DNA of 64,000 nucleotides from Phycisphaerae bacterium (GCA_017999985.1 JAGNKU010000003.1:124001-188000), one strand, 5' to 3'; counted from the stretch's first letter, positions 23,158 to 63,913 are shown. Notes: generated by a model from the sequence alone, not told the origin. Numbers and translations: made by a program.

Positions 23158-23754
23158 CTACGACTCGGCGCGCTGCCGGTAAAGGCCGGGCTCAACGACT
23201 TTGCACATCGCCGTCGTATCCAGCCGCCCGCCGAGGAATTCGTTGATCGCTTTCACCGGCGGCTGCGGGTCTTTCAGCATTTCGTTGTAGTTGACGTAGA
23301 GGATGCGGAAGTTGGGCTGCCGGGCGACCCAGGCTTCGAACTCGCTGAGCTGCTTCTTGAACAGCTCGATCAGCTTCTCTTTGGGCAGGTCGCCGCCCTC
23401 GCGCCCGCGGCGGCTCAGCATCACGTCCTGTGACTTGATCACTTCGTGCAGGTGGCGCTGCATGAACACGACGTAGTACGTGCGATCGGGCGGCAGGTCA
23501 TACAGCAGGCGGTAGACCATCTTGACGACCTTGCCGCCGGCCTGCTTGAGCCAGGAGGGGTCTTCCTTGGTCTTCTTGACGGGCTCGAACTCGTAGTAGC
23601 CGCGCGGATTGTCTTCATCGGCGGCGCGGATGTTGTCAACGAGCGCGGGGATGCCGGCGGCCTCGAGCATCCGCATCATCATGGAGGTTCCGGACCGGGG
23701 CAGGCCGGACACGATCGTGACCAGGTCGGGATTGGTGACTGTCATAGCTGGCAT
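23158..23754 (-). CDS. sulfotransferase-like P-loop protein
   Basis: Small protein of 198 residues with the 5'-phosphosulfate loop [14 protein letters not shown] at residues 17-30, the hallmark of PAPS-dependent sulfotransferases. A second conserved segment resembles the 3'-phosphate region ([17 protein letters not shown]). Shorter than typical family members (250-300 aa) and it lacks a clear C-terminal lid. Acceptor unknown. Start ATG 23754 (GGAGTAG just upstream); an ATG nine bases inside is also possible. Upstream of sod on the same strand with a 110-base gap. Confidence 0.8.
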
Positions 23755-46005: not shown

Positions 46006-47277
46006 TCAGGCTCCGCCCCCAGCCATGCGGCGGCCGAGCTCGCGAAACAGCCGCCAGCCGAGGTGTTCGAAGTCGGCGAACACGACGATCGTGGCGATCT
46101 GGTAGTGCATGGTGAGCAGCCAGCAGATGGCTGTCCAGAGGGGGCCGGCGGGGGGCCTGCGGCCGCTGCGTTGCCACGCGTGATCCCAGGCGCGCTGCAC
46201 CGTCAGGGCGACGGCCTGGCTCAGGCCCCAGGCCAGGAAGGACCAGCTCGCGCCGTGCCAAAGACCGCAATAGCCGAAGACGGCGAGGGTATTGAGCGTG
46301 CCGTGCCGGCGATTGCCGCCGAGGGGGATGTAGATGTAATTCCGCAGCCAAGAGCCGACGGTAATGTGCCAGCGGTGCCAGAAATCGCGTACGGAGGTGG
46401 CGAGGGGCAGGCGGTTGAAGTTGTCGTCGACGCGGATGCCGAGCCAGCAGGACAGGGCGACGGCGAGTTCGTTGTAGGTCCAGAGCAGGAGGTAGATCTG
46501 AATCGGAATCAGGTAGAAGACGCGCACGAGCTTGCCGGTGGCGAAGAGCTGCGGCTCGGCGAAAAAGTCGGGGGCGTTGGCGGCGATCGTTGGAATCTGG
46601 CGGCCGACGACCGCGAGCCCGACGCCGCCGAGGAGGAACAGGGCGAAGCGCTTAAGGCCTTCGCGCCATGCAGGGATGTGGCGCGGGTCCCAGGTGTCCA
46701 ACCGGGCAAGAAACTCCTGCCGGCGTAGCACAGGGCCGAGTCGCATGCAGGGCGCGTAGAGCAGCCAGCAGAGTGTGTCGCCAAGGCGGGTCGGCGGTTG
46801 TGGCTCGCGAGCGAGGTCGACGCCCCAGGCGATGAAGCGGAACAGAAAGTACGAGAAGCCGACGTTGTGCAGCGCGGCCATGCGCGACGGATACCAGGAC
46901 TGCTGCGCGTGCCACCACAGCGGCAGTGCCAGCAGATGCAGGCCGACCCAGACCAGCGCGATCATCGTGCGCGGGCCGATCTGATTGCGCCGGCGGAGTT
47001 CGCCGAGCAGCAGGACGTAGGTGCTGGCCACCAGCACGCCGCCGAGCAGCACGGCGGTCGTGGTGAGCTGGAGCGTGGGCAGCAGCCAGACCAGTCCGCC
47101 GAGGATGAGCGCGGCGCGCGGACGGCGGCGCGCGAGCAGGAGGATCAACGGGATCAGCGGCAGGAACGCCAGCAGGCCGAAGGGGCCGGCCAGGATTTCC
47201 TGTGGCGACAGCGGCGGGTGGGCCGTGACGGCATTGAAGATGGGCGTGGGCTTCGGCAGCGCGGCCCAGAGCGTCAC
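46006..47277 (-). CDS. MBOAT family membrane O-acyltransferase
   Basis: 423 residues, about ten membrane helices. Diagnostic motifs are DFWHRWHITVGSWLRNYIYIP and the conserved His341 in GLWHGASWSF. Members move acetyl or acyl groups across the membrane to modify exopolysaccharides (AlgI), peptidoglycan (PatA) or teichoic acids (DltB). The AlgI/PatA-like class is favoured here. GTG start 47277 overlaps the stop of the L,D-transpeptidase gene (GTGA), so the two are translationally coupled. That points to a cell-wall or envelope glycan acceptor. Confidence 0.9.
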   Translation of the reverse strand: MTLWAALPKPTPIFNAVTAHPPLSPQEILAGPFGLLAFLPLIPLILLLARRRPRAALILGGLVWLLPTLQLTTTAVLLGGVLVASTYVLLLGELRRRNQIGPRTMIALVWVGLHLLALPLWWHAQQSWYPSRMAALHNVGFSYFLFRFIAWGVDLAREPQPPTRLGDTLCWLLYAPCMRLGPVLRRQEFLARLDTWDPRHIPAWREGLKRFALFLLGGVGLAVVGRQIPTIAANAPDFFAEPQLFATGKLVRVFYLIPIQIYLLLWTYNELAVALSCWLGIRVDDNFNRLPLATSVRDFWHRWHITVGSWLRNYIYIPLGGNRRHGTLNTLAVFGYCGLWHGASWSFLAWGLSQAVALTVQRAWDHAWQRSGRRPPAGPLWTAICWLLTMHYQIATIVVFADFEHLGWRLFRELGRRMAGGGA

Positions 47278-48401
47278 GGGAGGATCGTCACCTGCGACTT
47301 ACCGGGCTGCAGCAACTTGTAGAGCAAGGCGACGTCTTCGTTGTGCATGCGGACGCAGCCAAGCGAGACGGCCTTGCCGATCGAGTCGGGCTCGATGGTG
47401 CCGTGGATGCCGAAGCCCTCGTGTCCGACGCATGCACCCTCGATGCCTTCGAGGCCGATCCAGCGCTTGCCGAGTGGGTTGTTCGGGTCATCGGGGGCGA
47501 TGATGCGCTTGTCCGTCGCGGACCCCGGCGGATAGTAAGTCGGGTTTTCGAGGCGGTTCTTGACGCGCCAGACGCCTTCCGGGGTGCCGTTCTCGCTGCC
47601 CAGCGCGACGCGGAAGCTACGGATGTACAGGTCCTGCAGGTACACGTCCATGCGGAACTTCGATTTGTAGATCTTCACATGGAACGGGCCGCGCGGGGCC
47701 TTCAGCTTCTGATCGACCCGGATCTTCGTTGCGTCGGCGATGCCGTTCACCTCCATCAGGGCTTCGTAGGGCACGTCGTATTTCTTCGCGATGTTGAGCA
47801 GCACGTCGCCGGACTGCACGACGTAGGATTCGATCAGCGGGTCGTCGGGCAATATCCGGCGGCTGAAGATGGACTCGTCGGCGACGCGGGCCAGCAGTGT
47901 GCGCACCTCGTTGGCGTCGGCCTCGGGCAGCGTCTCCTTCAGCAGGGCGTTGAGTGCGTGGCGCGCCTCGATGACCCGGCCGGTGTCCAGCAGCTGGCGC
48001 GCGGCGGCGATCGGCCGGCTGGCGGCGCGGGGCGGGCTGGGCTGGGTCGTCGGGGCGGCGGGCTGCGTAGTGCGCGCGGCAACCAGCGCGGGCTGACTGG
48101 TGGGCGCGGTCGGGATCAGCACCTGCTCATCCGCGGCCAGCTTGACGTCCCTTTTTGGCGCGGGGGCGGTAGCCGGCGCGGGCTGGGTCGTCGCGACCGG
48201 ACGCGCCGGCGGCTTGTGCGGGATGGTCACCGGCTTCTGAGCGGCCGGGGTGACCGGTGCTGGCGCTTGCGGTGCCGGCAGAGTCGCCGGCTTGGGCGGA
48301 CGGCGGAAGTACCACCAGCCGCCGGCGGCCACCAGCACGACGAAGAGGCCGGAGAAAACGATGGGGGTGTATGGATTCCTGCGTCGCCGATGAGTTCTCA
48401 C
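47274..48401 (-). CDS. LysM and L,D-transpeptidase (YkuD) domain protein
   Basis: 375 residues. A short basic N-terminus and one membrane helix (VFSGLFVVLVAAGGWWYF) are followed by a long Pro/Ala/Thr linker with TTQP repeats (about 35-150). A helical region and LysM domain (about 210-260, ESYVVQSGDVLLNIAKKYDVP) come next, then the YkuD domain. Catalytic residues are H333 (HGTIEPDS) and C349 (SLGCVRMHN). It cross-links peptidoglycan or attaches proteins to it. Start is GTG 48401 with AGGAGG seven bases upstream; earlier starts lack conservation. Confidence 0.93.
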   Translation of the reverse strand: MRTHRRRRNPYTPIVFSGLFVVLVAAGGWWYFRRPPKPATLPAPQAPAPVTPAAQKPVTIPHKPPARPVATTQPAPATAPAPKRDVKLAADEQVLIPTAPTSQPALVAARTTQPAAPTTQPSPPRAASRPIAAARQLLDTGRVIEARHALNALLKETLPEADANEVRTLLARVADESIFSRRILPDDPLIESYVVQSGDVLLNIAKKYDVPYEALMEVNGIADATKIRVDQKLKAPRGPFHVKIYKSKFRMDVYLQDLYIRSFRVALGSENGTPEGVWRVKNRLENPTYYPPGSATDKRIIAPDDPNNPLGKRWIGLEGIEGACVGHEGFGIHGTIEPDSIGKAVSLGCVRMHNEDVALLYKLLQPGKSQVTILP

Positions 48402-48566
48402 GATGCCGCCTCCTGGGCACGTCCGGTTTCGCGGCCGTCGTCCTGACGGGTCGCGGCGTGAAGATAACGCAGTTCGGCCTGCATGGCCACTGGCGCGGGT
48501 CATGCACCGCCAAGGCACAAGGACACCAGGGTGGGACGGTGAGGGGGCTACCCGGCAGTGTATGGT

Positions 48567-49685
48567 TCAGAGGTAGCGGCTTGCGATTTCCACCAGCTCG
48601 CCCATGCGGTGGGCCCAGGTGTGTTCGCGCAGCGTGCGGGCCTGACCGGCCTGGGCGATCCGCTCGCGTTCGTCGTCGTGGGCGAGATAATGCGCGGCCA
48701 GCGCGACGCATTCTTCCAGGTCGCCGTACGCCACGACCTCACGCCCGGGCTCGAAGAGTTGCGCGAGGTTGTCCTTACGATCGGTGAGCAGCAGCGTGCC
48801 GACGCCCGTGGCTTCGTAGAGGCGCATGTTGTTGGCGTAGTTGGCGGCGACGTCGATGTGCCGGTTGAAGACGATCCGGGCGTTGCGCAGCGTCTGGTAC
48901 ATCGCCCGGCCCCAGAGGGGTGGCCCACAGGTGGCGCGGAGCGGCGAGTCGGGCGCCAGTCGGTCGCGCCCGTAACCCCAGACGTGGACCGCGTGGCGCC
49001 GCGCGAGTTGTCCGAGCATGCGCGTGCCGTCATCGTGCGGCCCGCCGAGCCCGCCGACAAAGGCGATATCGAACTGCTTCTCGGCCGGCGCGAGGTGCTG
49101 CAGCACGCGCGGCTCGAACGCCAGCCGCACGAATTCACTTCGCAGGCCCTGGGCGCGGAAGTGATCCACGAGGTTCGGCAGCGACGAGAGCATGAGGTCG
49201 TATGCGCCGAGGTCATGCGTGGGCAGCGGCGCGGCATGCTGACCGATGACCAGCCGGCAATAGCGTTTGGCGACGCGCACGAAGTCGCTGCCCAACGCCT
49301 CAATCGCCATGCTGTAGAGCACGTCGGGCCGGTAGTGCTTGAGCTGGGCTTCGAGAATGTCGTACAGCCAGCGCCGGTTGACCGCACGCGTCGGCCAGGG
49401 GACGAAGCCGCGCCGCCAGCGCAGTTGCCACTGCGTGTCGCGTGCGCAGCGCAGACCTTGCTCGCGGGCCCACTGCTTCTGCATGGGCTCGGCGTTGATG
49501 ATGACGTCCCAGGCCTCATGGTCGAGTTCGCGCAGGTGCGTCGAGTAGAAGTCGGCTACGCCGAAGAGGCTGTCAACGCGGGACTGCCACTGCTCGGCGT
49601 AGCTCCGCCGGGCCAACGTCTCGTCCGCCGCGTACAGTTGCCGGAGGAAATCCGGGTAGTCGGTATTGACGATCAGCCACCTCAT
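48567..49685 (-). CDS. CgeB/DUF3880-like glycosyltransferase
   Basis: 372 residues. GT-B fold, resembling spore-maturation protein CgeB and DUF3880 proteins. An N-terminal Rossmann half (MRWLIVNTDYPDFLRQLY) is followed by a C-terminal nucleotide-sugar half with RLYEATGVGTLLLTDRKDNLAQLFEPG, the usual donor-binding signature of this group. Donor and acceptor unknown. ATG 49685 overlaps the stop of the CapA-like gene (ATGA). It is the last gene of the seven-gene leftward operon. Confidence 0.85.
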   Translation of the reverse strand: MRWLIVNTDYPDFLRQLYAADETLARRSYAEQWQSRVDSLFGVADFYSTHLRELDHEAWDVIINAEPMQKQWAREQGLRCARDTQWQLRWRRGFVPWPTRAVNRRWLYDILEAQLKHYRPDVLYSMAIEALGSDFVRVAKRYCRLVIGQHAAPLPTHDLGAYDLMLSSLPNLVDHFRAQGLRSEFVRLAFEPRVLQHLAPAEKQFDIAFVGGLGGPHDDGTRMLGQLARRHAVHVWGYGRDRLAPDSPLRATCGPPLWGRAMYQTLRNARIVFNRHIDVAANYANNMRLYEATGVGTLLLTDRKDNLAQLFEPGREVVAYGDLEECVALAAHYLAHDDERERIAQAGQARTLREHTWAHRMGELVEIASRYL

Positions 49686-50884
49686 GACGGCGCACCCGCG
49701 GCGGTGGCGAACGGCTGGGTCCAGGGCAGCCACTGATCGACGAGTCGGCGACTGGCGTCTGAACGCAAGTCCGGCAGTTCCCCGCCCAGCACACCCAGGG
49801 CCGTCGCGATGAGATCGCGATGCGTGAGGCAGCCGAACAGGTGGTGCCAGAGGAGGTAGTCTTGGCGGGAGGCGCGCGGGCTGGGCCGTGCGCCGCACCA
49901 CATCTGGCGCCAGAGGCTGGTCACGGGAGCGGCTGTCGGTTTGCCGCTGGCACGTTCCGGCGGCAGGCCGAGGTAGCCGCGGTAGTACTCGCGATAAGCC
50001 CGGACGGCGACGTCCTGCCAGAGCGCCGTCAGCAGCTTTCGGTCCACGAGCGGGCGGTTGCAGTCGGCCAGGTAGGCGGCATGCTCCGCCGATTCGCGGG
50101 CGGTGATCGCAAGCCGCTCGCCGCTGGCGGTGAGGTTGATCTCCAGTGCCCGCCATTGGAGCGGCCGGCGGCCAAGCTGGATGTCCACACCGAGAGACCA
50201 GAGCGCGTTGGGGTAGGCCTGCCACTCATGCGGGTTCACCGCGAGGTTGCCCAGGCCGTAAAAGATGAGCCCGTCATGGTACTCCTCGAGTCCCTGCGGC
50301 ACGTGCGGATGGTGGCCGTGAACAACCGCCGCACCCGCGTCGATCCATGAGCGGTACAGGTCTTGGATAGCCGGCGCGGGCCAAGGCGAAACCTCCGCGC
50401 CGGCGTGCACCGAGACGATCACTGCGTCGGCCTGGGCTGCGCACGCGCGAATCGCCGCATAGACCCAGGGGCCGAAGGCGGCTACGCCGGGCTGCGCGGC
50501 GACGGCGACGCCGAACTGGGCCTCGCAACAGGCGAGGATGGCGACGCGCGTGCCGGCGTCGTCGAGGAAGAGCGGCTGGCGGGCAACGTCCAGCGTGTCG
50601 CCGGCGCCGACCGCGTGGATGCCGGCCGCCAGGAGTGCGGACAGCGTCTCCGCCAGACCGGCCGGGCCGAAGTCCATGATGTGGTTGTTTGCCAGCGCGC
50701 AGACCAGCGGTCGCGCGGGCGGCGGGGGCGCGACCGTGTGCAAGTGCGGCCCGGCCTTCGGTGCCGGTGGCAACTGATGGCCTGCTGGCAGGAGCGGCCC
50801 TTCAAGATTCAGCAGTGCGCAGCCGGCAGGCCACGACACATCGCAGTGCAGAGAGCCGGGGGCCCAGTCGCCGAGCAGGATCAT
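49682..50884 (-). CDS. CapA family protein (poly-gamma-glutamate capsule type)
   Basis: 400 residues. The metallophosphoesterase-like CapA fold has LGDWAPGS at the start, LNLEGPLLP, the NNHIMDFG motif and GHHPHVPQGLE. CapA is part of the poly-gamma-glutamate ligase/export complex, but many relatives are phosphoesterase-like and of unknown function. No CapB/CapC genes are nearby. No signal peptide or membrane anchor is apparent, which is unlike classical CapA. ATG 50884, 10 bases after the upstream gene's stop; the stop overlaps the CgeB-like gene's start. Confidence 0.88.
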   Translation of the reverse strand: MILLGDWAPGSLHCDVSWPAGCALLNLEGPLLPAGHQLPPAPKAGPHLHTVAPPPPARPLVCALANNHIMDFGPAGLAETLSALLAAGIHAVGAGDTLDVARQPLFLDDAGTRVAILACCEAQFGVAVAAQPGVAAFGPWVYAAIRACAAQADAVIVSVHAGAEVSPWPAPAIQDLYRSWIDAGAAVVHGHHPHVPQGLEEYHDGLIFYGLGNLAVNPHEWQAYPNALWSLGVDIQLGRRPLQWRALEINLTASGERLAITARESAEHAAYLADCNRPLVDRKLLTALWQDVAVRAYREYYRGYLGLPPERASGKPTAAPVTSLWRQMWCGARPSPRASRQDYLLWHHLFGCLTHRDLIATALGVLGGELPDLRSDASRRLVDQWLPWTQPFATAAGAPS

Positions 50885-50894
50885 GGTTGTGCCA

Positions 50895-52331
50895 CTATGC
50901 CGGCGCGCCTGCGCCGCTCAAGTTCCATCGGTCATCACAGCGGGCCTGCGCTTGTCGCCGGAGGAGATTGTCGATCGGACGCAACGTCAGGTACGCGCAA
51001 TAGGCCTCCATCTGGCGGTCGACGAATCCGCGGCGGCGCAAGGGTCGTCCCCAGCGTCGCTGGCGCACCAGGCACCACCAGAGGTCGGCGAGCGCGCCAT
51101 GGTCCCGAGCCGTGTCGTTGATCCATTGAACATAATCTGGGCGGACGAGGGCGCTGAGGAGCTGCGTGTCCAGCGGGCGCAGGGGCCGCCGCTTTAGCGC
51201 CTGCTGGTTGAGCGTGTTTCGCCGGTCCGCGGAGAGATCCGTGGATTCGAAATCCAGCCTGTGGCGGGCGAAGAAGTCGCGTTGCCAGCGGCGCTCGGCC
51301 CGGCGTTCATCCGGCAGCGTCAGCATCGCGAGGGCGAGTTCGGGCACCAGGAACGGCGACCAGGGTCGAAAGCCGAGTGTGGCGGGCACACGCAGCAGAT
51401 AGTTGAGTAGGATGATCTTGAAGCGCATGGCCTCGACGACGCGGAAGCGTGCAGCGCGGAGCCGGTCGCGGTGCTGCTCGAAGTAGGCGCCGGCCAGTGT
51501 GCCATCGTCGCGCAGCAGGCTCATACGGGCGTCCGCGTGCATGCCGTGGGCGTACCCGAGTCGGGTCAGGTCGGCCGGGCGTTCGAGCGGCTCGATCTCG
51601 ACGTCTCCAGCCCAGGCGTCGCCGATGATGCCGCTGAGCAGCGCATGCGGGCCGGAGTGCACGGCGGCAATCCGACGATAGAACTCGATCTGGTACATGC
51701 CGTGCGCGTGCGTGGCGGGACCGAACAGCGCGTCCCAGTCGTCGAAGTAGCGGTGGAAGTCACCGAGTGGAACCTGCTCCCAGCGTGTGCCGAGGCGCTC
51801 GGCCAGCCGGCGGGCGTAGACCACCTCACTGGACTCGGCCTGGCGTGCGGCGAGCCCATAGGTGAAGGAGCGAATGCGGCGCTTGTCGCGCAGCAGGACG
51901 TTCAACAGGCGCGAGTCATAGCCGCCGCTGGTGGGGACGATGATGACCCCGTCGACGTTGTGCTCCCATTCACGGACCGCGGCTGTGAGCGCCTCGATGA
52001 CCTGGTGCTCGTCGCTCGTCCGGCCGAGCCAGCGCTCGACGGGGTCGGGCAGGGCGCACACGTGAAATCGGCCGGATGCATCGAGCGTGAGCCGGCTGGA
52101 CGCGGGCAGGACCTTCACGTGGCGGATGGGCGTCTGGCCGAACACGGAGTAGCCGAAGCGTAGATAGTTGTTGAAGCCCTCGGGGTGAAACTGCAGGTCG
52201 TCGAGGTCGATGACGTCATGAATGTTGTGGCTGGCGCGGGCGGTGCGCTCGTTGTAGAACACGGGTTGTGAGCCGAGCCAGTCGGTTTCGTAAAGCGTAG
52301 TCGTGCGTTCGGTGGTGAGTGTCGCGGTCAT
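50895..52331 (-). CDS. asparagine synthase-like protein lacking the glutaminase cysteine
   Basis: 478 residues. The ATP-pyrophosphatase (PP-loop) signature VPTSGGYDSRLLNVLL is intact, so it can probably adenylate a carboxylate. The N-terminal 100 residues align with the second half of the class II amidotransferase domain (LYETDWLGSQPVFYNERTARAS, YLRFGYSVFG), but the MCGI start with its nucleophilic Cys is absent. It overlaps asnB by ATGA and so is translated right after it. Either it takes ammonia from AsnB or an amine acceptor replaces ammonia. Product unknown. Confidence 0.85.
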   Translation of the reverse strand: MTATLTTERTTTLYETDWLGSQPVFYNERTARASHNIHDVIDLDDLQFHPEGFNNYLRFGYSVFGQTPIRHVKVLPASSRLTLDASGRFHVCALPDPVERWLGRTSDEHQVIEALTAAVREWEHNVDGVIIVPTSGGYDSRLLNVLLRDKRRIRSFTYGLAARQAESSEVVYARRLAERLGTRWEQVPLGDFHRYFDDWDALFGPATHAHGMYQIEFYRRIAAVHSGPHALLSGIIGDAWAGDVEIEPLERPADLTRLGYAHGMHADARMSLLRDDGTLAGAYFEQHRDRLRAARFRVVEAMRFKIILLNYLLRVPATLGFRPWSPFLVPELALAMLTLPDERRAERRWQRDFFARHRLDFESTDLSADRRNTLNQQALKRRPLRPLDTQLLSALVRPDYVQWINDTARDHGALADLWWCLVRQRRWGRPLRRRGFVDRQMEAYCAYLTLRPIDNLLRRQAQARCDDRWNLSGAGAPA

Positions 52332-54346
52332 GGTTTTTCACCCCCGACGCCTACGCACTCCGCGGCCTGGGCGATCGACGCGGGGCTGTGGCGCGGCGCT
52401 GCCGGGCGCACGAAGCGTTCATGCCAGAGGAAGATGTTGAGCGCTTCCCAGATACGCGTGGTGTCGTGCCAGGTGAAGCCGTCGCGGGCGCAGCGCTCGA
52501 CGCCGGCGGATAGCGCCGCTGCGTCGATGAAGCCGCATTCCCGCATGGACCGGCTGCCGCAAACATCGCGGAGGTAATCGCGCACAATCGGGGCGTCGAA
52601 CCACTCGCGTTCGGCGATGGAGAAGCCGAGCTTGGCTCGCCGGCGGCGGACGGCGTGCGGCACGACATCGGCCGTCGCGGCCCGCAGGATGTGCTTCGTC
52701 TCGCGGGCGACCTTGTCCTCGTCGGGCAGCGAGAATGCGAATTGGACGAGGCGGTGGTCGAGCAGGGGGGCGCGCGATTCGACACTGTACGCCATCGTCG
52801 CGCGGTCCACGACCCGCAGCACGATTGGCAGGACGCGCTGTGTGAAGGCGGTATGAAGCTCCGTGCCCAGCGGACTTAGACCGTCCAGCGTGGGGACGCG
52901 CATGGGCGGGCAGGCGGAACGGATGTCCGGTGTGACGTACGATGTCGTCTGTACCGGTGATGGTGCAGTGCGTTCACCCACGACGCGTCGCGATTGCCAC
53001 TTCAGCCAGCGCCGCAGGTACGGCGCGCGGGGCAGCTTCGCGAGAAAGATGCGCCACGCAGGTGACCCGACTTCGTCGATGTCCGGGTTGCGCGTGTCGG
53101 CGAGGCAGCGCGCGGCCTGCCAGGTGCGCCGCCAGTCGCCGCGGGCAGCATACGTATCCACGGCCGCCTGGGCGAAATACGGGTAGCCGCCCAGCAGCTC
53201 ATCGCCGCCGTGACCTTCGAGGATGACGCGCGTGCCCTGGCTGGCCACGTGCGCGTACATGATGTGCAGCGCGAGCACGGAGGACGACCAGACCGGCGCC
53301 TCCTGGTGCCAGATCAGGTCATCGACGAGCGCCGGCAGGCGGTCCGGCTGCGGGCGGACGATGGACACCTGCTCATCGTCGTGCCAGAAGCGCACACACC
53401 GCTCGACCCACGGGTACTCATCCACCGGGCTGCCGGGGTGTGAGAGCGAGAAGACGCGGAAGTCCTTGGCCGCGCCGGACGTCGCACTGCGCACCTGGCC
53501 GGCGGCCCGCAAGGCGCGCGCGACGCCATACACGGCGGACGAATCCATGCCACCGCTCAGACATACGCCGGTCGGGACGTCGTTACGCAGGCGGAGCCGC
53601 ACGGCGTCGGTCAGCAGGTTGCGGAACTCGGCGACGCGATCCTCGAACCGGCGGGGTACGTCGATGCGCTGCTCCAGCACGTCCCACCAGCGTGTCAGAC
53701 GCACGTGCCGGCCGTGGACTTCGACGTAGTGACCGGCGGGTACGCTGGCCACGCCGGTGTAAACCGTCGCGCTGTCCGCGTCGCAGCCCCAGCCTTGCAG
53801 GTAGCGGCCGACCTGTGGCCAGTGGGGTTGGGCGGCCGCACCAAGTGCGAGCAGGGCTTTCATCTCGGAGGCGAAGGTGAAGCCCCCGTCGGCCTGCGCG
53901 TAATAGAGCGGCTTCACGCCGTAGCGGTCGCGGGCGGCGAACAGGCGGTGCTCACGTGCGTCGTAGAGCGCGAAGGCGAACATCCCGTTGAAGCGCTGCA
54001 GGCACGCCGGCCCCCAGCGCTGATACGCGGCCAGGATGACTTCGGTGTCTGAGTCGGTGCGGAACACGTCGCCGGCGGTGGCCAGCTCGCGGCGCAGCTC
54101 GAGATAGTTGTAGATCTCGCCGTTGAAGACGAGGTGGTAGCGGCCGGTGGCGTCCGCCATCGGCTGGTCGGCCGCGTCGGACAGGTCGACGATGGCGAGC
54201 CGCGTGTGGCCGAGGATGATGCGGCCGTCATGCCAGCAACGGGTGCGGTCGGGGCCGCGATGGGTGAGCAGTGCGAGCGCGCGGCGGAAGTCCTCGACGT
54301 ATTCCGTCGTCACGACACGTTCGTACGTACCCAGGATGCCGCACAT
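52328..54346 (-). CDS. asnB: glutamine-hydrolysing asparagine synthase-like amidotransferase
   Basis: 672 residues, full length. Starting at ATG 54346, the Cys2 nucleophile (MCGILGTYER) is placed for a class II glutaminase, followed by RGPDRTRCWHD, NGEIYNYLEL and the RDRYGVKPLYY hinge. The C-terminal synthetase has the PP-loop CLSGGMDSSAV and the GHGGDELLGGYPYF signature. Such proteins in polysaccharide loci amidate sugar acids or peptides rather than make asparagine. ATG 54376 is an alternative start but would hide Cys2. It is coupled to its glutaminase-less neighbour. Confidence 0.92.
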   Translation of the reverse strand: MCGILGTYERVVTTEYVEDFRRALALLTHRGPDRTRCWHDGRIILGHTRLAIVDLSDAADQPMADATGRYHLVFNGEIYNYLELRRELATAGDVFRTDSDTEVILAAYQRWGPACLQRFNGMFAFALYDAREHRLFAARDRYGVKPLYYAQADGGFTFASEMKALLALGAAAQPHWPQVGRYLQGWGCDADSATVYTGVASVPAGHYVEVHGRHVRLTRWWDVLEQRIDVPRRFEDRVAEFRNLLTDAVRLRLRNDVPTGVCLSGGMDSSAVYGVARALRAAGQVRSATSGAAKDFRVFSLSHPGSPVDEYPWVERCVRFWHDDEQVSIVRPQPDRLPALVDDLIWHQEAPVWSSSVLALHIMYAHVASQGTRVILEGHGGDELLGGYPYFAQAAVDTYAARGDWRRTWQAARCLADTRNPDIDEVGSPAWRIFLAKLPRAPYLRRWLKWQSRRVVGERTAPSPVQTTSYVTPDIRSACPPMRVPTLDGLSPLGTELHTAFTQRVLPIVLRVVDRATMAYSVESRAPLLDHRLVQFAFSLPDEDKVARETKHILRAATADVVPHAVRRRRAKLGFSIAEREWFDAPIVRDYLRDVCGSRSMRECGFIDAAALSAGVERCARDGFTWHDTTRIWEALNIFLWHERFVRPAAPRHSPASIAQAAECVGVGGEKP

Positions 54347-54368: not shown

Positions 54369-55406
54369 TCAGCCAAGCGCGATGCGCGTCAAAGGCAGCC
54401 AGAGCTGGTGGTTGCGGCGCCAATGCGCACGCAGCCGTCCCCAGAATTGCCGCAGGCCCGCGGCGCAGAGGTTCAGCGGCACGTGATGTACGTGGGCCGG
54501 CGTCCGGTCGACGTAGCCCAGCAGCCGCATCAGCTCCGCGACGCCGCGATGAGCCACATGCAGGCGGCGCCGGCCCCAGTGTGAGAGGCGCAGGCGCCAG
54601 AACAGGGCCTCGACCGCGGGTGTGAGTTCGGTCTTGTAGCGCCCGATGGACTGGGCCGACACGCCGCCGCTGAGCGGGCTGTTGCTCCAGGTGGCGTGGA
54701 TGCTGACGGGCGCGCAGTTTTTCCAGTAATCATCCTGCGACGCGGCGAGCATCTGCGGCTCGAACGCGACGTCCAGGTGCTGGCAAATGCGCTCGAGCGT
54801 GGCCTGCGGCTGCACAGCGAGGGCCTCGTATTTCACTTCCAGGTACGCCGGATGGTCGCGCCACGCGATCGCCGCCGACACGTTGTAGAGCCAGTGGCTG
54901 ACGGCGTGGTAGGGGCGCGGGTCGCGCTTGAGCAGCGAGCAGACGACGTCGCGGCCGTCGCGGACCAGGTGGATGACGCGGGCGTCAGGGTACAGTTCGA
55001 GGATGTGGCCCAGGTAATAACCGTTCGAGCCGGTCTTCTCGACCCAGCGCGACTTGCCCCGCTTCTGCAAATAGTTCGTGAAGAACGCGTCAAAGAAACC
55101 GCGCAGGCCCGTGGCCTCCTGCGCCAGGCGGACCAGCATCTCGGCGTCGCAGAAATAGGCGTCCCGGCTGTGGAAGAAATCCGGCGTGTCGATCTGGCCG
55201 TCGGAGAGCAGCCCACGGCGCAGCCAGCGGCCGATGTTCCGCTGCACGTGGGGCCACGGCGCGTACAACTGCCGCTTGTCGAACGCGTAGACCTCCGGAC
55301 CGCAGGCGAACTGCGCGTGCCGGTCCAGCATCACGCCCAGCAGCGTGGTCCCCGAACTGGCGGAGCCGACGATGAAGACCGGCCGATCGACGCGCAGGAC
55401 GCTCAT
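54369..55406 (-). CDS. sulfotransferase
   Basis: 345 residues. PAPS-dependent sulfotransferase with the 5'-phosphosulfate loop VFIVGSASSGTTLLGVML at residues 10-27 and the 3'-phosphate motif VIHLVRDGRDVVCSLLKRDP. It would transfer sulfate from PAPS to a glycan hydroxyl or amine. No signal peptide; soluble, with basic patches. ATG 55406 overlaps the methyltransferase stop (ATGA). The upstream open frame to 55646 has no conserved sequence. Confidence 0.9.
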   Translation of the reverse strand: MSVLRVDRPVFIVGSASSGTTLLGVMLDRHAQFACGPEVYAFDKRQLYAPWPHVQRNIGRWLRRGLLSDGQIDTPDFFHSRDAYFCDAEMLVRLAQEATGLRGFFDAFFTNYLQKRGKSRWVEKTGSNGYYLGHILELYPDARVIHLVRDGRDVVCSLLKRDPRPYHAVSHWLYNVSAAIAWRDHPAYLEVKYEALAVQPQATLERICQHLDVAFEPQMLAASQDDYWKNCAPVSIHATWSNSPLSGGVSAQSIGRYKTELTPAVEALFWRLRLSHWGRRRLHVAHRGVAELMRLLGYVDRTPAHVHHVPLNLCAAGLRQFWGRLRAHWRRNHQLWLPLTRIALG

Positions 55407-56134
55407 GGGGCGGCCTCGCGGCGGGCCAGCGCCAGGTTCGGGTCGGGTGTCTCGACCGGGCCGAAACCGCCCAGCTCTTGCACGCTGTCGTCCACGGCCC
55501 GCTTGACCTCGGGCCAGTCGTAATCGTGAATCGCGATCACCCCGCCGGGCGTGACCCAGCGGCCCCACCTCAGAATGTCGTGTCGGCAGGCGTCGTAGTC
55601 GTGCCAGCCGTCGATGAAGAGCAGCCGGATCGGCGTGCCGGGCCAACTGGCGGCGGCCGCCTGACTGGTGACGGTGAGCGGGACGACGACGTCGTCCAGC
55701 TTGAAGCGGGCGATGTTCTGCATGAACGCCCGGAGCGACGAGAACGCCGCGGCGAGGGCGCCATATTCCTCGACCAGGCCGATGCCGCCCGTGTGCGGAT
55801 CGACGGCGTACACGCGACCGGCGCCGCGCATCCGCGTGCCCAGCGCCAGGCAGACAGTGCTGCGGCCGAAGGCGCTGCCGATTTCGACTACGTCGCCAGC
55901 GGCGTCGGTGTTGCGCGCGAGGTCAAATAGGCGCGCCCCCTGAGACGGTGGCAGCCAGCCGGTGATCCCGTTCCAGCGCGGCAGATAGCGCTCGAAGCGC
56001 CCGGGCGGGTAGCGCCAGCGGGCGACGAGGGCGGCGACGTGCTCGGCGGCGGAAAGGTGAAAGCCGTCAATGACGAGTTGCTGCCCGCCGGTCTGGCGAT
56101 CCGTGATGACGTGCGTGCGCGTGCGGACGTCCAT
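55403..56134 (-). CDS. class I SAM-dependent methyltransferase
   Basis: 243 residues. The SAM-binding motif I VVEIGSAFGRSTVCLALG and the acidic loop LLFIDGWHDYDACRHD fit the Methyltransf_24 group, which often modifies sugars in surface polysaccharide loci. Acceptor unknown. It begins 6 bases after the ABC ATPase stop and overlaps the sulfotransferase start, so it is part of the tightly packed leftward operon. Confidence 0.85.
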   Translation of the reverse strand: MDVRTRTHVITDRQTGGQQLVIDGFHLSAAEHVAALVARWRYPPGRFERYLPRWNGITGWLPPSQGARLFDLARNTDAAGDVVEIGSAFGRSTVCLALGTRMRGAGRVYAVDPHTGGIGLVEEYGALAAAFSSLRAFMQNIARFKLDDVVVPLTVTSQAAAASWPGTPIRLLFIDGWHDYDACRHDILRWGRWVTPGGVIAIHDYDWPEVKRAVDDSVQELGGFGPVETPDPNLALARREAAP

Positions 56135-56140
56135 GTCGGC

Positions 56141-57436
56141 TCATCCCGCGGTGGCGGGCTCCATCGTCGGGTGCGGTTCGGCGTTGGGTAGCGGCTCCGG
56201 ATTCAGGTCCCAGCGGGCGTCGGGGACGACGTAGCCCTGGCTGTTCGGGTCCGGCAGCGCGCCCGTGCCGTAGACGTCGCGCGGCAGGATCGTCAGCGTG
56301 CGGCAGTCGGTCAGCGTCTCGACGTCGCTGGTGCGGCCCCACAGCGCCACGTCCACGCGATAGCGGTACGGCGCGAGGCGCGCATTGTGCCAGACGGCCC
56401 GGATCGTGCGCCGTCCTTCCACCGCCCAGCGAGAGTTCTGCTGTATGTCGGTGTGAATGGTAACCAGACGCTGGCCGGCGGCGTTGTGGATACCGATGCC
56501 GACGCGCGGGTGTTCGAGCACGGGCTCGTGGAACAGGTCCAACTCGAACACGATGTCCGCGCCGATCGGAAAGGCGTCACTGGCGCGGCCGTCGGGGGTC
56601 ATCATCCGCACGGCGCGAATGTGGCGGGTCCGGCCGGCGTCGAGGGCACCGCGCGACTGGGCGAGCAGGCTCGACATGTAGCCGGCGACGACCTGCGCGG
56701 CGGGTCCGATGTCCACGATCCGCCCAGCGTTGAGCATAACGGCACGCTGGCACAGCGCCTCAATGGCCAGCGTATTGTGGCTTACGAACAGGACCGTGCG
56801 GCCCTGCTTCGCGACCGTGCCCATCTTGCCGAGGCACTTCTGCTGGAAGCCGGCGTCGCCCACGGCAAGCACTTCGTCCACGATCAGGATTTCCGGGTCG
56901 AGGTGCGCGGCGACCGCAAAGGCCAGCCGGACGTACATGCCGCTGGAGTAGCGTTTCACCGGCGTATCGAGGAAGCGCTCGACCTCGGAGAACGCGACGA
57001 TCTCGTCGAACTTGCGGCGGATTTCGGCGCGGGTCATGCCGAGGATAGCGCCGTTCAGGTAGATGTTTTCGCGGCCGGTAAGCTCGGGGTGAAAGCCGGT
57101 GCCGACCTCGAGCAGGCTGCCGACGCGGCCGCGGATGGTGGCCCGGCCGCTGGTCGGGCAGACCACGCGGGAGAGAATCTTCAGCAGCGTGCTCTTGCCG
57201 GAGCCGTTGCGGCCGATGATGCCGACCACCTCGCCGGGCTGGACGCTGAAACTTACATCGCGCAACGCCCAGATGAACTCGTCCTCACTGCCGGTCTCGC
57301 TGAGCAGGCGCAGGCGGCGCAGGTGCGACTGAAAGGCCGCCGCAAGGGCTGCCGTCCAGGTGCGGGCCGGCGGCGCGGGGCGGCCGATCTTGTAGCGCTT
57401 CGCGAGGTTCTCGATGACGATCGCCGGCTGACTCAT
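56141..57436 (-). CDS. polysaccharide-export ABC transporter ATP-binding protein (Wzt/TagH type)
   Basis: 431 residues. The ATPase domain (about 1-250) has Walker A GRNGSGKST, the signature YSSGM and Walker B ILIVDEVLAVGD. A C-terminal Wzt_C-like domain (about 280-431, HIRAVRMMTPDGRASDAFPIG) is the part that recognises the glycan's end modification in Wzt. The matching membrane subunit (Wzm/TagG) is not seen in the window. ATG 57436 is used; there is no strong ribosome site. It opens the leftward operon. Confidence 0.93.
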   Translation of the reverse strand: MSQPAIVIENLAKRYKIGRPAPPARTWTAALAAAFQSHLRRLRLLSETGSEDEFIWALRDVSFSVQPGEVVGIIGRNGSGKSTLLKILSRVVCPTSGRATIRGRVGSLLEVGTGFHPELTGRENIYLNGAILGMTRAEIRRKFDEIVAFSEVERFLDTPVKRYSSGMYVRLAFAVAAHLDPEILIVDEVLAVGDAGFQQKCLGKMGTVAKQGRTVLFVSHNTLAIEALCQRAVMLNAGRIVDIGPAAQVVAGYMSSLLAQSRGALDAGRTRHIRAVRMMTPDGRASDAFPIGADIVFELDLFHEPVLEHPRVGIGIHNAAGQRLVTIHTDIQQNSRWAVEGRRTIRAVWHNARLAPYRYRVDVALWGRTSDVETLTDCRTLTILPRDVYGTGALPDPNSQGYVVPDARWDLNPEPLPNAEPHPTMEPATAG

Positions 57437-57630
57437 TCGCGCACTTTCTGCACTCCGGGTGGGCGGCGCGCAGCGTCGCTTCCGGTTGTTCTTGGATATC
57501 GGGTCTGGGTGGAGGTGCTCTGAACCGCACGGGGGCCGCGCAAGACTTGCCGCCCCGTCGCCTGCGGACACCGGCTCGCGAGCGTCAATTGGGTGCTACT
57601 CGGACCCGATAGAAGTAATGGAGTATCACA

Positions 57631-60996: not shown

Positions 60997-62390
60997 GGCA
61001 CCCCGCGTTGCCCGATGACCGGCTCCACGTGCTGATGGTGAACACCCACCAGACCGGGGGCGGCGCCGGACGTGTCGGCGAGCTGCTGGCCGAGGGCCTG
61101 CGGCGGGCCGGCGACGACGTGCGGGCGTTCGTGCGGGCGTCCGTCACCGGGCACCCGTGTCAGTGTGCGGCCGGATCGTGGCGCGAGACGCGTGCGGCGG
61201 CGTGGCTGGCGCGCCAGGGCTTCACGGACCTGGGACACGTCAGCTCCTTTTGCTGGCGAAGCCGCCCTGACTTTGCGGCGGCGGACGTGGTTCACCTGCA
61301 CAACCTGCATGGCGACTTCGTGTCGCTCGCGGCGCTGCCGCTCTGGGGCTGGCAGAAGCCGCTGGTCTGGACGCTGCACGACTGCTGGCCGCTGACGGGC
61401 GGCTGCGCGGCGCCGGCGACGTGCACCCGCTGGCGGCGTGTGTGCGGGCGCTGCCCGCAGACGGGCGTGTACCCGGTGAGCGGCGTGGACCGCACCGGCA
61501 TCTATCGTCGGGTCAAGCCGTGGCTCTGGCGCTGGGCGCGGCCGCGGGTTGTCACGCCTTCACACTGGCTCGGGCGACGTGTCGCGGAAATCCCGGCGTT
61601 GCAGTCGTTGCCGCGCCGCGTCATCCGGCCGCCGATCGACTGTGATACGTTTGCGCCGCGTTCCGACCGCGCGGAATTGCGTCGTCGGCTCGGCCTGACA
61701 CCGGAGCGGCCTACGGTCGTGCTCGCCGGCAACAACTGGAGCGACGCGCTCAAGGGCGGCCCGGACGGCATTGTAGCGCTGCGGGGGGCGGCGGCGGCCG
61801 TGCCCGATCTGCAGGTGCTGGCGATTGGCCGGGGCAGCGCGGCACTGCTAGCCGCGACGCGTCTGACGGGGCGCGCCCTGGCGTTCCAGCACGGGCGGCA
61901 ACCGCTGGCGGCCGCATACGCCTGTGCCGACGTCTGCCTGTTCCCGTCGCGCGCGGAGAACTACCCGCTGACGGTGCTGGAAGCGCTGGCCTGCGAGACG
62001 CCGGTGGTGGCGTACGACGTGGGCGGCGTGCCGGAGCAGATCGAGCATTCGCAGACCGGATACCTCGCGCATGATGGGCAGCCGGCGGAACTTGCCGCGG
62101 GGTTGGTATGCCTGCTGCGCGCACCGAACAACCTGCGGGCGATGGGCCGCCGGGGGCGCGCATTCGTGCTGCGCACGTCGTCGATTCCGGCGGTAGTGGC
62201 CGAGTATCGCGACGAATACCGCCGGGCGATCGCGTCGTGGTGCCGGCGACGCGGCCGGAGCGTGTCCCGCAGCAGTGTTGGGTGGTGGGGACAGCGTTTG
62301 GCTCGGGTGTTGGGCTGGGAAGCGACTGAACGTGAATCGCCAGCCGGGATGCCGGCGCACCGCGAGTGCGCGATGGTCGAGGTGTCGTGA
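60993..62390 (+). CDS. GT4 family glycosyltransferase
   Basis: 465 residues. GT-B fold with the N-terminal VLMVNTHQTGGGAGRVGELLAEGL and the donor-binding ENYPLTVLEALACETPVVAYD. A Cys-rich loop (CWPLTGGCAAPATCTRWRRV CGRC) in the N-terminal half is typical of a subgroup in exopolysaccharide loci. Donor and acceptor unknown. ATG 60993 overlaps the deacetylase stop by ATGA; the frame is open from 60579 but that part is a shadow of the deacetylase gene. Confidence 0.9.
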   Translation: MRHPALPDDRLHVLMVNTHQTGGGAGRVGELLAEGLRRAGDDVRAFVRASVTGHPCQCAAGSWRETRAAAWLARQGFTDLGHVSSFCWRSRPDFAAADVVHLHNLHGDFVSLAALPLWGWQKPLVWTLHDCWPLTGGCAAPATCTRWRRVCGRCPQTGVYPVSGVDRTGIYRRVKPWLWRWARPRVVTPSHWLGRRVAEIPALQSLPRRVIRPPIDCDTFAPRSDRAELRRRLGLTPERPTVVLAGNNWSDALKGGPDGIVALRGAAAAVPDLQVLAIGRGSAALLAATRLTGRALAFQHGRQPLAAAYACADVCLFPSRAENYPLTVLEALACETPVVAYDVGGVPEQIEHSQTGYLAHDGQPAELAAGLVCLLRAPNNLRAMGRRGRAFVLRTSSIPAVVAEYRDEYRRAIASWCRRRGRSVSRSSVGWWGQRLARVLGWEATERESPAGMPAHRECAMVEVS

Positions 62391-62392
62391 GC

Positions 62393-63913
62393 ATGGCGCG
62401 CGTTCTGTTTGTGTTCTCGATTGACGGACACCGGCGGTTTGATCGCCGGCCACTCTCGGCCGCCGCCGTGCAGCTCGGCATTTCGTACATCTCCGCGCTG
62501 CTGAAAGCGCACGGGCACGAGACGCGCCTGGTCGTGCTGGAGAGTCGCCGCGGCGCGGCCGAGTTCCCACTCGTCACGGAGCGGCTGCGCGCGTTCGAGC
62601 CTACGCTCGTGTGCCACACCGCGGTCGCGACGCAGTACCCGTTCATCGTCCGCGTGGCGGAGCACGTGCGTGCGCTGCGGCCGAATCTGCCGCAATTGAT
62701 CGGCGGCGTCCACGTGTCGCTGAATCCGGAGCAGGCGCTGCGCGACGGTTTCGACGCGGTGTGCGTCGGCGAAGGCGAGCACCCGACCCTGGAACTGGCC
62801 GCCGCCCTCGACGCCGGGCTGGTGCCGACCGGCATCGCGAACCTCTGGCTGCGACGCGGCGGCGACGTGCAGCGCAACGCGACGCGCCCGTTCGTGCGAC
62901 CGCTCGATTCACTGCCCCCGCCGGATCGTCGCATGTGGGACGAGTGGCTGGACCACTCCAGGCCGCCGGTGCACACGGTGCTGCTCGGCCGCGGCTGCCC
63001 ATACCAGTGTGCGTACTGCTGCAATCACGCGCTGAAAAAGCTCGCGGCGGGGCCGTATGTGCGGATGCGGACGCCGGAGGCCGTGGTGCGCGAGATCGAA
63101 TCGCTCGCGGCGCCGTCCGACGCCGCGCAGAGCATGTACCTCGAGGTCGAGACGTTCATGCTCGATTCGGACTGGACCGAGAGCTTCTGCGACCGGCTGG
63201 CGGCGTTCAACGCCCGGCGCCGGCGGCCAATCCGGTTTGGCGCGAACGTGCGCGTGACGCCCCATATTGAAGTTGAACGGTTCTTCGCGGCGTTCGCGCA
63301 GGCGAACATCCAGTCGGTGAATATCGGCCTGGAGTCCGGCAGCGAGCGCATTCGGCGCGACGTACTGCGGCGCTACTACAGCAACGACGACGTGCTGCGG
63401 ACGGTGCGGGCGGCACGGACCCACGGCATGCAGGTGGCGCTGTACAACCTGATCGGGCTGCCGGGCGAGACCTGGCGGGATTTCCTCGAGACAGCCCGCA
63501 TGAACCGTCTGTGCCGGCCCGATGCGCACCGCACGTCGATCTTCTATCCCTATCCCGGCACCGCGTTGCACGGCGTGTGCCGGGAGCAGGGATTGCTCGG
63601 GGCGGGGCTGCCGACGGATCGCGAGCGCAAGCAGGCGGCACTGGATTTGCCCGGTTTCCCCCGCCGGCGGATCCAGGAGTGCCACGACTACTTTGACGTC
63701 TACGTGGCGCATGCCAACCCGATGTGGTGTCGGCTCCACGTTCTGTGGCGGCGCTGCACGGAGTGGGTCGACCGGCACACGCGCGGCCTGCCCGGGTACT
63801 GGCGCGTGCGGCGCGGCATCGCCGCCGGGCAGCGGCTGGTACGCGGTGGTGTGCGGGCGACGGTGGATGCGGTGGCGTCCCATGTGCGGACGCCGCGGGA
63901 GCTGGGCGGATGA
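62393..63913 (+). CDS. B12-binding domain radical SAM protein
   Basis: 506 residues. N-terminal cobalamin-binding-like domain (about 1-140: QLIGGVHVSLNPEQAL, with no DxHxxG motif clearly visible), then the radical SAM domain with GRGCPYQCAYCCN (C-x3-C-x2-C). The C-terminal domain is about 150 residues. This type often carries out methylation or ring rearrangement. The substrate is probably a sugar or lipid in the same pathway. ATG 62393 (GAGGTG upstream) is chosen; GTG 62387 overlapping the previous stop is the alternative. The neighbouring GT2-like gene starts within its stop. Confidence 0.85.
   Translation: MARVLFVFSIDGHRRFDRRPLSAAAVQLGISYISALLKAHGHETRLVVLESRRGAAEFPLVTERLRAFEPTLVCHTAVATQYPFIVRVAEHVRALRPNLPQLIGGVHVSLNPEQALRDGFDAVCVGEGEHPTLELAAALDAGLVPTGIANLWLRRGGDVQRNATRPFVRPLDSLPPPDRRMWDEWLDHSRPPVHTVLLGRGCPYQCAYCCNHALKKLAAGPYVRMRTPEAVVREIESLAAPSDAAQSMYLEVETFMLDSDWTESFCDRLAAFNARRRRPIRFGANVRVTPHIEVERFFAAFAQANIQSVNIGLESGSERIRRDVLRRYYSNDDVLRTVRAARTHGMQVALYNLIGLPGETWRDFLETARMNRLCRPDAHRTSIFYPYPGTALHGVCREQGLLGAGLPTDRERKQAALDLPGFPRRRIQECHDYFDVYVAHANPMWCRLHVLWRRCTEWVDRHTRGLPGYWRVRRGIAAGQRLVRGGVRATVDAVASHVRTPRELGG

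Follow-up and report, generated by a model that had tools for sequence, protein, structure and literature searches.

An asparagine synthetase-like PP-loop protein with half a glutaminase domain is recurrently encoded next to a CapA/PGA_cap protein

Known relatives and the genomic setting

Carbapenam synthetase CarA and beta-lactam synthetase are relatives of AsnB that have no glutaminase activity; they couple an activated carboxylate to an internal amine. Other AsnB-type enzymes, WbpS and WbqG, amidate uronic acids and are encoded in surface-glycan loci (PMC7468200), and a Glu-Tyr dyad, exemplified by Glu363/Tyr368 of PesC, is common to the AsnB-like amidating enzymes (PMC13060819). An AsnB-like protein and a protein of the PGA_cap fold act in one pathway in the lasso peptide system, which employs an AsnB-like cyclase and the epimerase MslH; the corresponding domain (PF09587) is also that of CapA/PgsA of the poly-gamma-glutamate system.

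The protein analyzed here, P0001, is encoded in a 64,000-nucleotide stretch of DNA (the window) on contig C3 of a 5.2-Mb Phycisphaerae genome (G+C 67%). Seven minus-strand genes run from 57571 to 48567, with gaps of no more than 22 nt, in the following order:

56141..57571 (-), Wzt-type ATP-binding subunit of a polysaccharide ABC exporter (ABC_tran and Wzt_C)
55403..56134 (-), methyltransferase (PF13578)
54369..55406 (-), sulfotransferase (PF13469; start set by the junction and by the relative L061)
52328..54346 (-), P0002, intact class II AsnB-type amidotransferase, 672 aa, MCGI start, motif EGHGGDELLGGY (GATase_7, GATase_6 and Asn_synthase, full length)
52328..52331 (-), ATGA stop/start overlap of AsnB and P0001, read 52331-52328 (from the sequence; absent in L061 and L062)
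50895..52331 (-), P0001, glutaminase-less AsnB-like PP-loop protein, 478 aa (PF00733, TIGR01536, family alignment, AlphaFold model)
51878..51931 (-), PP-loop region of P0001, TSGGYDSR, residues 134-141, and the next helix (family alignment of 12 relatives)
49682..50884 (-), CapA/PGA_cap protein, 400 aa, no obvious signal peptide (PF09587, 155.5 bits)
48567..49685 (-), glycosyltransferase, in ATGA overlap with CapA (PF13524, E 9e-36; kept in L061 and L062)

The window holds genes of glycan type, namely the Wzt exporter, sulfotransferase, methyltransferases and glycosyltransferases, and it also encodes a UDP-glucose dehydrogenase, which makes a uronic acid plausible. Two Sulfotransfer_3 genes (54369-55406 and 23158-23754) suggest a sulfated product. 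A radical SAM protein with a B12-binding domain is encoded at 62366-63913, downstream of the methyltransferase, deacetylase and glycosyltransferase genes that the same glycan region contains, and the operon is followed on the same strand by an MBOAT acyltransferase and a LysM-YkuD L,D-transpeptidase (46006-47277 and 47274-48518) with a 4-nt mutual overlap. Promoter and terminator scans gave signals no more than in shuffled sequence. There was no PADLOC match to anti-phage defence and no plasmid match, and viral contigs contained no confirmed P0001 relative.

Domain architecture and active-site residues of P0001

P0001 shares with AsnB and with WbpS/WbqG a PP-loop domain of the same family and a surface-polysaccharide setting but, unlike them, lacks the glutaminase cysteine, the first half of the glutaminase domain and the Glu-Tyr dyad. 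Its match to PF00733 in the Pfam search is weak (27.6 bits, cut-off 21), and in the NCBIfam search positions 131-313 of TIGR01536 correspond to residues 7-187 of P0001, the rest of the model being unmatched and the score (30.2 bits) missing the cut-off of 267.1. Since this match starts only at position 131, and since the structure model described below aligns from about residues 110-132 of solved chains, the first glutaminase half is absent: P0001 begins in the middle of the domain, with the first half, including the Cys, gone and the second half kept. The missing N-terminus is real, because the frame (480 aa when open) is closed by an in-frame TGA 9 nt, or three codons, 5' of the ATG, which rules out a missed upstream start carrying Cys2; the first Cys lies around residue 92, remote from the N-terminus, which excludes, as far as a sequence can, a cysteine exposed there by processing. 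Among the hallmarks of a glutamine-dependent asparagine synthetase, P0001 has the PP-loop SGGxDS (TSGGYDSR) and lacks the Cys nucleophile and a complete class II glutaminase domain. A first-pass annotation of this DNA had given the coordinates, strand and frames of the P0001/P0002 pair (50895-54346) correctly, and its description of P0001 as devoid of an MCGI start while keeping TSGGYDSR and the second glutaminase half agrees with these alignments, as does its assignment of Cys2 to the partner.

The dN/dS ratio of P0001 against a 61%-identical relative is 0.24, and that of the AsnB pair 0.20, with dS near saturation; P0001 is under purifying selection similar to that on the intact AsnB. This ratio, together with the PP-loop residues invariant in 12 members, rules out a decaying gene.

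P0002 is, by comparison, complete. It has the MCGI start with Cys2 and complete glutaminase and synthetase domains, is matched end to end by both Pfam glutaminase models and PF00733, and scores 405.9 bits against TIGR01536 (cut-off 267.1), as is characteristic of a glutamine-dependent AsnB-type amidotransferase. Its full domain layout is the same as in AsnB and WbpS/WbqG, but it remains far below the cut-off of the WbpS model TIGR03108 (322.6 bits against 816.9). The GDE....Y-type motif is kept (GGDELLGGY). In P0002 and its relatives in L061 and L062, a His precedes GGDE (EGHGGDELLGGY), where the ordinary AsnB proteins of these genomes have an acidic residue; P0002 may have a substrate other than aspartate. 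A direct BLASTP comparison of P0001 with P0002 gave nothing significant (E 0.81), so the two belong to one superfamily but are only distantly related, and are not recent duplicates; the term paralogues, previously applied to them, is loose.

Close relatives of P0001, with 34-62% identity, are encoded at L061, L058, L059, L060/L098, L094, L095, L102, L096 and L097. L061 belongs to the same taxonomic family as the window, L058 to a Rhodopirellula MAG and L059 to an Opitutae MAG; a single Bacteroidia MAG carries two copies (L060/L098 and L094), and the genomes of L095, L102, L096 and L097 were drawn from Bacteroidota and Verrucomicrobiota searches. L062 is a divergent homologue (27%) that occupies the corresponding position of the same operon. 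The family is rare: it was found in 3 of the 114 genomes in the window's order, and in 2 of 345 and 4 of 337 genomes in the phylum samples of the L060 and L059 genomes, respectively, at E 1e-15, the last counts including the query genome and one weak match. A phylum-wide search with the single P0001 sequence returned mostly ordinary AsnB proteins with weak E-values. The L097 and L062 proteins have longer N-termini, still without an MCGI start, which suggests a stepwise loss, of the Cys first and of the half-domain later. One further locus, L103 (G1611:C21, 9249-9566), encodes only the N-terminal ~110 residues of the family beside a flippase-like gene and is apparently a remnant.

In the family alignment, S135, G137, D139, S140 and R141 of the PP-loop do not vary among the 12 relatives, and 11 of the 12 members retain D238 of the second motif. 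Conserved positions specific to the family are W199, H208, H210, G211, Y213, F217, G237, D238, W240, R347 and Q350, and two near-invariant motifs, HAHGMY and GDAWAG, are new to it. Where AsnB reads GDE....Y, the family reads GDAWAG-- (GDAWAGDV and its equivalents across the members), and the dyad (DE....Y), which was sought in the alignment, is absent from every member. Nearly all members have I, L, V or Y immediately before this GDA/GDE motif, a position that is acidic in the ordinary AsnB proteins of these genomes. The position of the AsnB catalytic Lys corresponds to Q350, with the invariant R347 nearby, a placement that is tentative given the low identity of the alignment; no Lys is conserved at that position across the family in the alignment used, and the invariant residues include no Cys for sulfur carriage. 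Since the Glu-Tyr dyad is missing and no conserved Lys aligns with the catalytic one, AsnB-like adenylation and aminolysis cannot be assumed for P0001. The set of polar invariants (H208, H210, Y213, R347 and Q350) resembles an active site that has been remodelled, not one that has decayed.

The AlphaFold model of P0001, made from four sequences, is of moderate quality (pLDDT 61, pTM 0.62). Its best Foldseek matches are carbapenam synthetase (E 4.8e-7), the hydroxyamidotransferase TsnB9, AsnB and beta-lactam synthetase, and VIA-align matches P0001, beginning with its residue 6, to these chains from their residues 110-132 onwards (~110-128 for AsnB, beta-lactam synthetase and carbapenam synthetase). 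Carbapenam synthetase is also the closest solved structure by family profile; QueC (E 0.0066) and NAD synthetase (E 0.033) match it weakly. The nucleotide-binding domain of the model aligns with that of LarE (Z 8.9) almost as well as with that of AsnB (Z 9.8). CarA and beta-lactam synthetase keep a whole, if inactive, N-terminal domain where P0001, which has no glutaminase Cys, has only the second half; the sequence match is limited to the PP-loop region, and the setting of P0001 is polysaccharide, not antibiotic. Likeness of the predicted fold to carbapenam synthetase would not, by itself, reveal the reaction. The activation of a carboxylate for an amine other than ammonia, as initially suggested, is plausible in the light of the profile and Foldseek matches, the latter drawn from a model of moderate quality.

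CapA, rather than AsnB, as the conserved neighbour

The first-pass annotation had proposed that P0001 and P0002, coupled by their ATGA overlap, form a stoichiometric heteromeric amidotransferase. The overlap is real, but nothing marks it as special: three of the six junctions in the operon have it (AsnB/P0001, methyltransferase/sulfotransferase and CapA/glycosyltransferase), and in the relatives with an AsnB the junction is a gap of ~10 nt (L061) or >160 nt (L062). AsnB adjoins a P0001-family gene only in the window, L061 and L062; outside the window's taxonomic family, no AsnB neighbour was found in the flanking sequence examined (L058, L059, L060/L098, L094, L095, L096, L097 and L102). These independent operons, which the annotation itself had named as grounds for refutation, together with the complete synthetase domain of P0002, lead us to set the dedicated heteromer aside, and the relatives rule it out as a general role.

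A gene of the CapA/PGA_cap family (PF09587), by contrast, directly adjoins the P0001-family gene on the same strand in seven of the ten genomes that carry the family. The P0001-type gene comes first in the window, L061, L062, L095 and L102, and CapA comes first in L059 and L096, with an overlap of the pair in L095 and L102. By genome-wide count, nine of the ten genomes have exactly one copy of PF09587, which in G507 and G1211 is unlinked to the P0001-family gene, and none was found in G505. Within the window's order, PF09587 is present in 18 of 114 genomes, and 15 genomes have CapA genes without the P0001 family. P0002 and its relatives apart, about 70 control PF00733 (AsnB-like) loci, taken with flanks of 1.5 kb, showed no CapA, and no AsnB-like gene was found in the flanks of the remaining PF09587 loci that were tested within the order. 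Because related genomes are not independent, we rely on the repeated occurrence of the pair in distant genomes and in either gene order, and not on a probability. The CapA tree is poorly resolved; the partners do not form one clade, and their labels are clustered beyond most shuffles (8 of 500 as low). The conserved partner of P0001, across phyla, is CapA rather than the adjacent AsnB. In a genome of the order without the P0001 family, two PF09587 genes are found in tandem (L028, G028:C71:12103-14175; L115 and L129).

The window CapA passes the curated cut-off of PF09587 (155.5 bits against 27), and its closest solved relative is MslH, although its score against the MslH lasso epimerase model NF038314 (64 bits) does not reach the cut-off of 700. 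A pattern common to the window protein and its Opitutae counterpart (D6, N26-L-E28, N66-N67-H68..D71, H160, H191-H192-P-H194) resembles, by eye only, the reported metal and catalytic residues of MslH (PMC10406935); the structure model of CapA (pLDDT 34) was unusable. The co-occurrence of AsnB-like and PGA_cap-fold proteins recalls the lasso peptide pathway, but no lasso precursor or protease is present among the Pfam-annotated neighbours and the setting is one of glycans. Compared with the poly-gamma-glutamate system, no CapB or CapC was seen, the ATP-using partner is AsnB-like and not CapB, and neither a signal peptide nor a membrane anchor is obvious in the window CapA, unlike in CapA/PgsA. 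Nothing relevant to an AsnB-like/CapA pair in polysaccharide loci was found in the literature searched.

Possible roles of P0001

The surroundings of P0001 and its relatives support a role in surface glycans, as they include an exporter, a flippase (of the Wzx type, in L095), glycosyltransferases (one of them in L059), a sulfotransferase and methyltransferases; around the family genes of L060/L098, L058 and L097 no polysaccharide cluster is evident. We tentatively favour the view that P0001 is a ligase that uses ATP and, at a remodelled site and together with CapA, links an amine other than ammonia to a carboxylate of a surface-glycan precursor. The family, of AsnB-like PP-loop enzymes, would first have lost the glutaminase Cys and later, in most of its members, all of the first half of that domain. 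P0001 would work in the assembly of an exported surface polysaccharide with the adjacent, cytosolic CapA/PGA_cap protein: ATP bound at the PP-loop would activate a carboxylate, for example one belonging to a uronic acid of a glycan linked to a nucleotide or lipid. The amide would then form by attack of a primary amine other than the ammonia derived from glutamine. CapA, as a metal-binding calcineurin-like protein, might prepare, epimerise or hydrolyse the same substrate, and the adjacent P0002 would catalyze a separate, WbpS-like step, forming a uronamide from glutamine. Adenylation by P0001, the substrates and any physical complex are what we infer.

Non-AsnB chemistry and a pseudoenzyme are real alternatives, because the Glu-Tyr dyad is lost. 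If P0001 were a pseudoenzyme, binding a nucleotide or glycan as a scaffold or regulator of CapA or the glycosyltransferases without catalysis, the loss of the half-domain and of the dyad and the lack of a conserved Lys at the catalytic position of the alignment would be readily understood; the retention of SGGxDSR and of the motif Asp, the new polar invariants and a selection like that on intact AsnB argue against it, and we consider it unlikely. Quite unlikely, too, is that the PP-loop serves another kind of oxygen activation, on a sugar or small molecule and with CapA as partner, such as the formation of an amidine, thio-group or nitrile or the modification of an amide (compare WbpG, LarE and QueC). 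The nearly equal alignment of non-AsnB PP-loop enzymes, the His/Tyr-rich motifs in place of the AsnB active-site residues and the precedent of a nitrile-making AsnB-like enzyme (PMC13060819) speak for such chemistry, and the absence of a sulfur-carrying Cys from the invariant residues and the AsnB type of the half glutaminase and C-terminal domains speak against it. It is improbable that P0001 is an ammonia-using synthetase, fed by the P0002 glutaminase or, like NH3-dependent NAD synthetase and QueC, by free ammonia: the genes are adjoining and co-oriented with an ATGA overlap, the two genes stay together in L061 and, with a divergent homologue, in L062, and the weak QueC and NAD synthetase matches fit ammonia use, but the overlap is not conserved, relatives outside the taxonomic family have no AsnB neighbour, and P0002 owns a full synthetase domain while P0001 lacks the dyad. 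Mere mixing of gene clusters in shared surface-glycan islands, with no joint function, would accommodate the 15 genomes with CapA alone and the three with P0001 but no adjacent CapA, and is very improbable in view of the adjacency in seven of ten genomes with one PGA_cap gene per genome and both gene orders, the L095 and L102 overlaps and the lack of a CapA link at control loci.

The ligase reading has a bolder form, which we regard as rather doubtful: P0001 and CapA might constitute a new two-protein ATP-dependent amide ligase, in which a His/Tyr-based, half-glutaminase AsnB-like enzyme activates the carboxylate of a glycan, with CapA completing the reaction. If this is true, CapA-type proteins in polysaccharide loci gain a biochemical role. 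For such surface-polysaccharide genes, automatic annotation would give only "asparagine synthase" and "capsule protein", and the results correct what one would naturally assume, that P0001 is partnered by the AsnB next to it. The recurrent link between a glutaminase-less AsnB-like protein and CapA provides a testable pair, which would help to explain the PGA_cap domain beyond poly-gamma-glutamate and lasso peptides.
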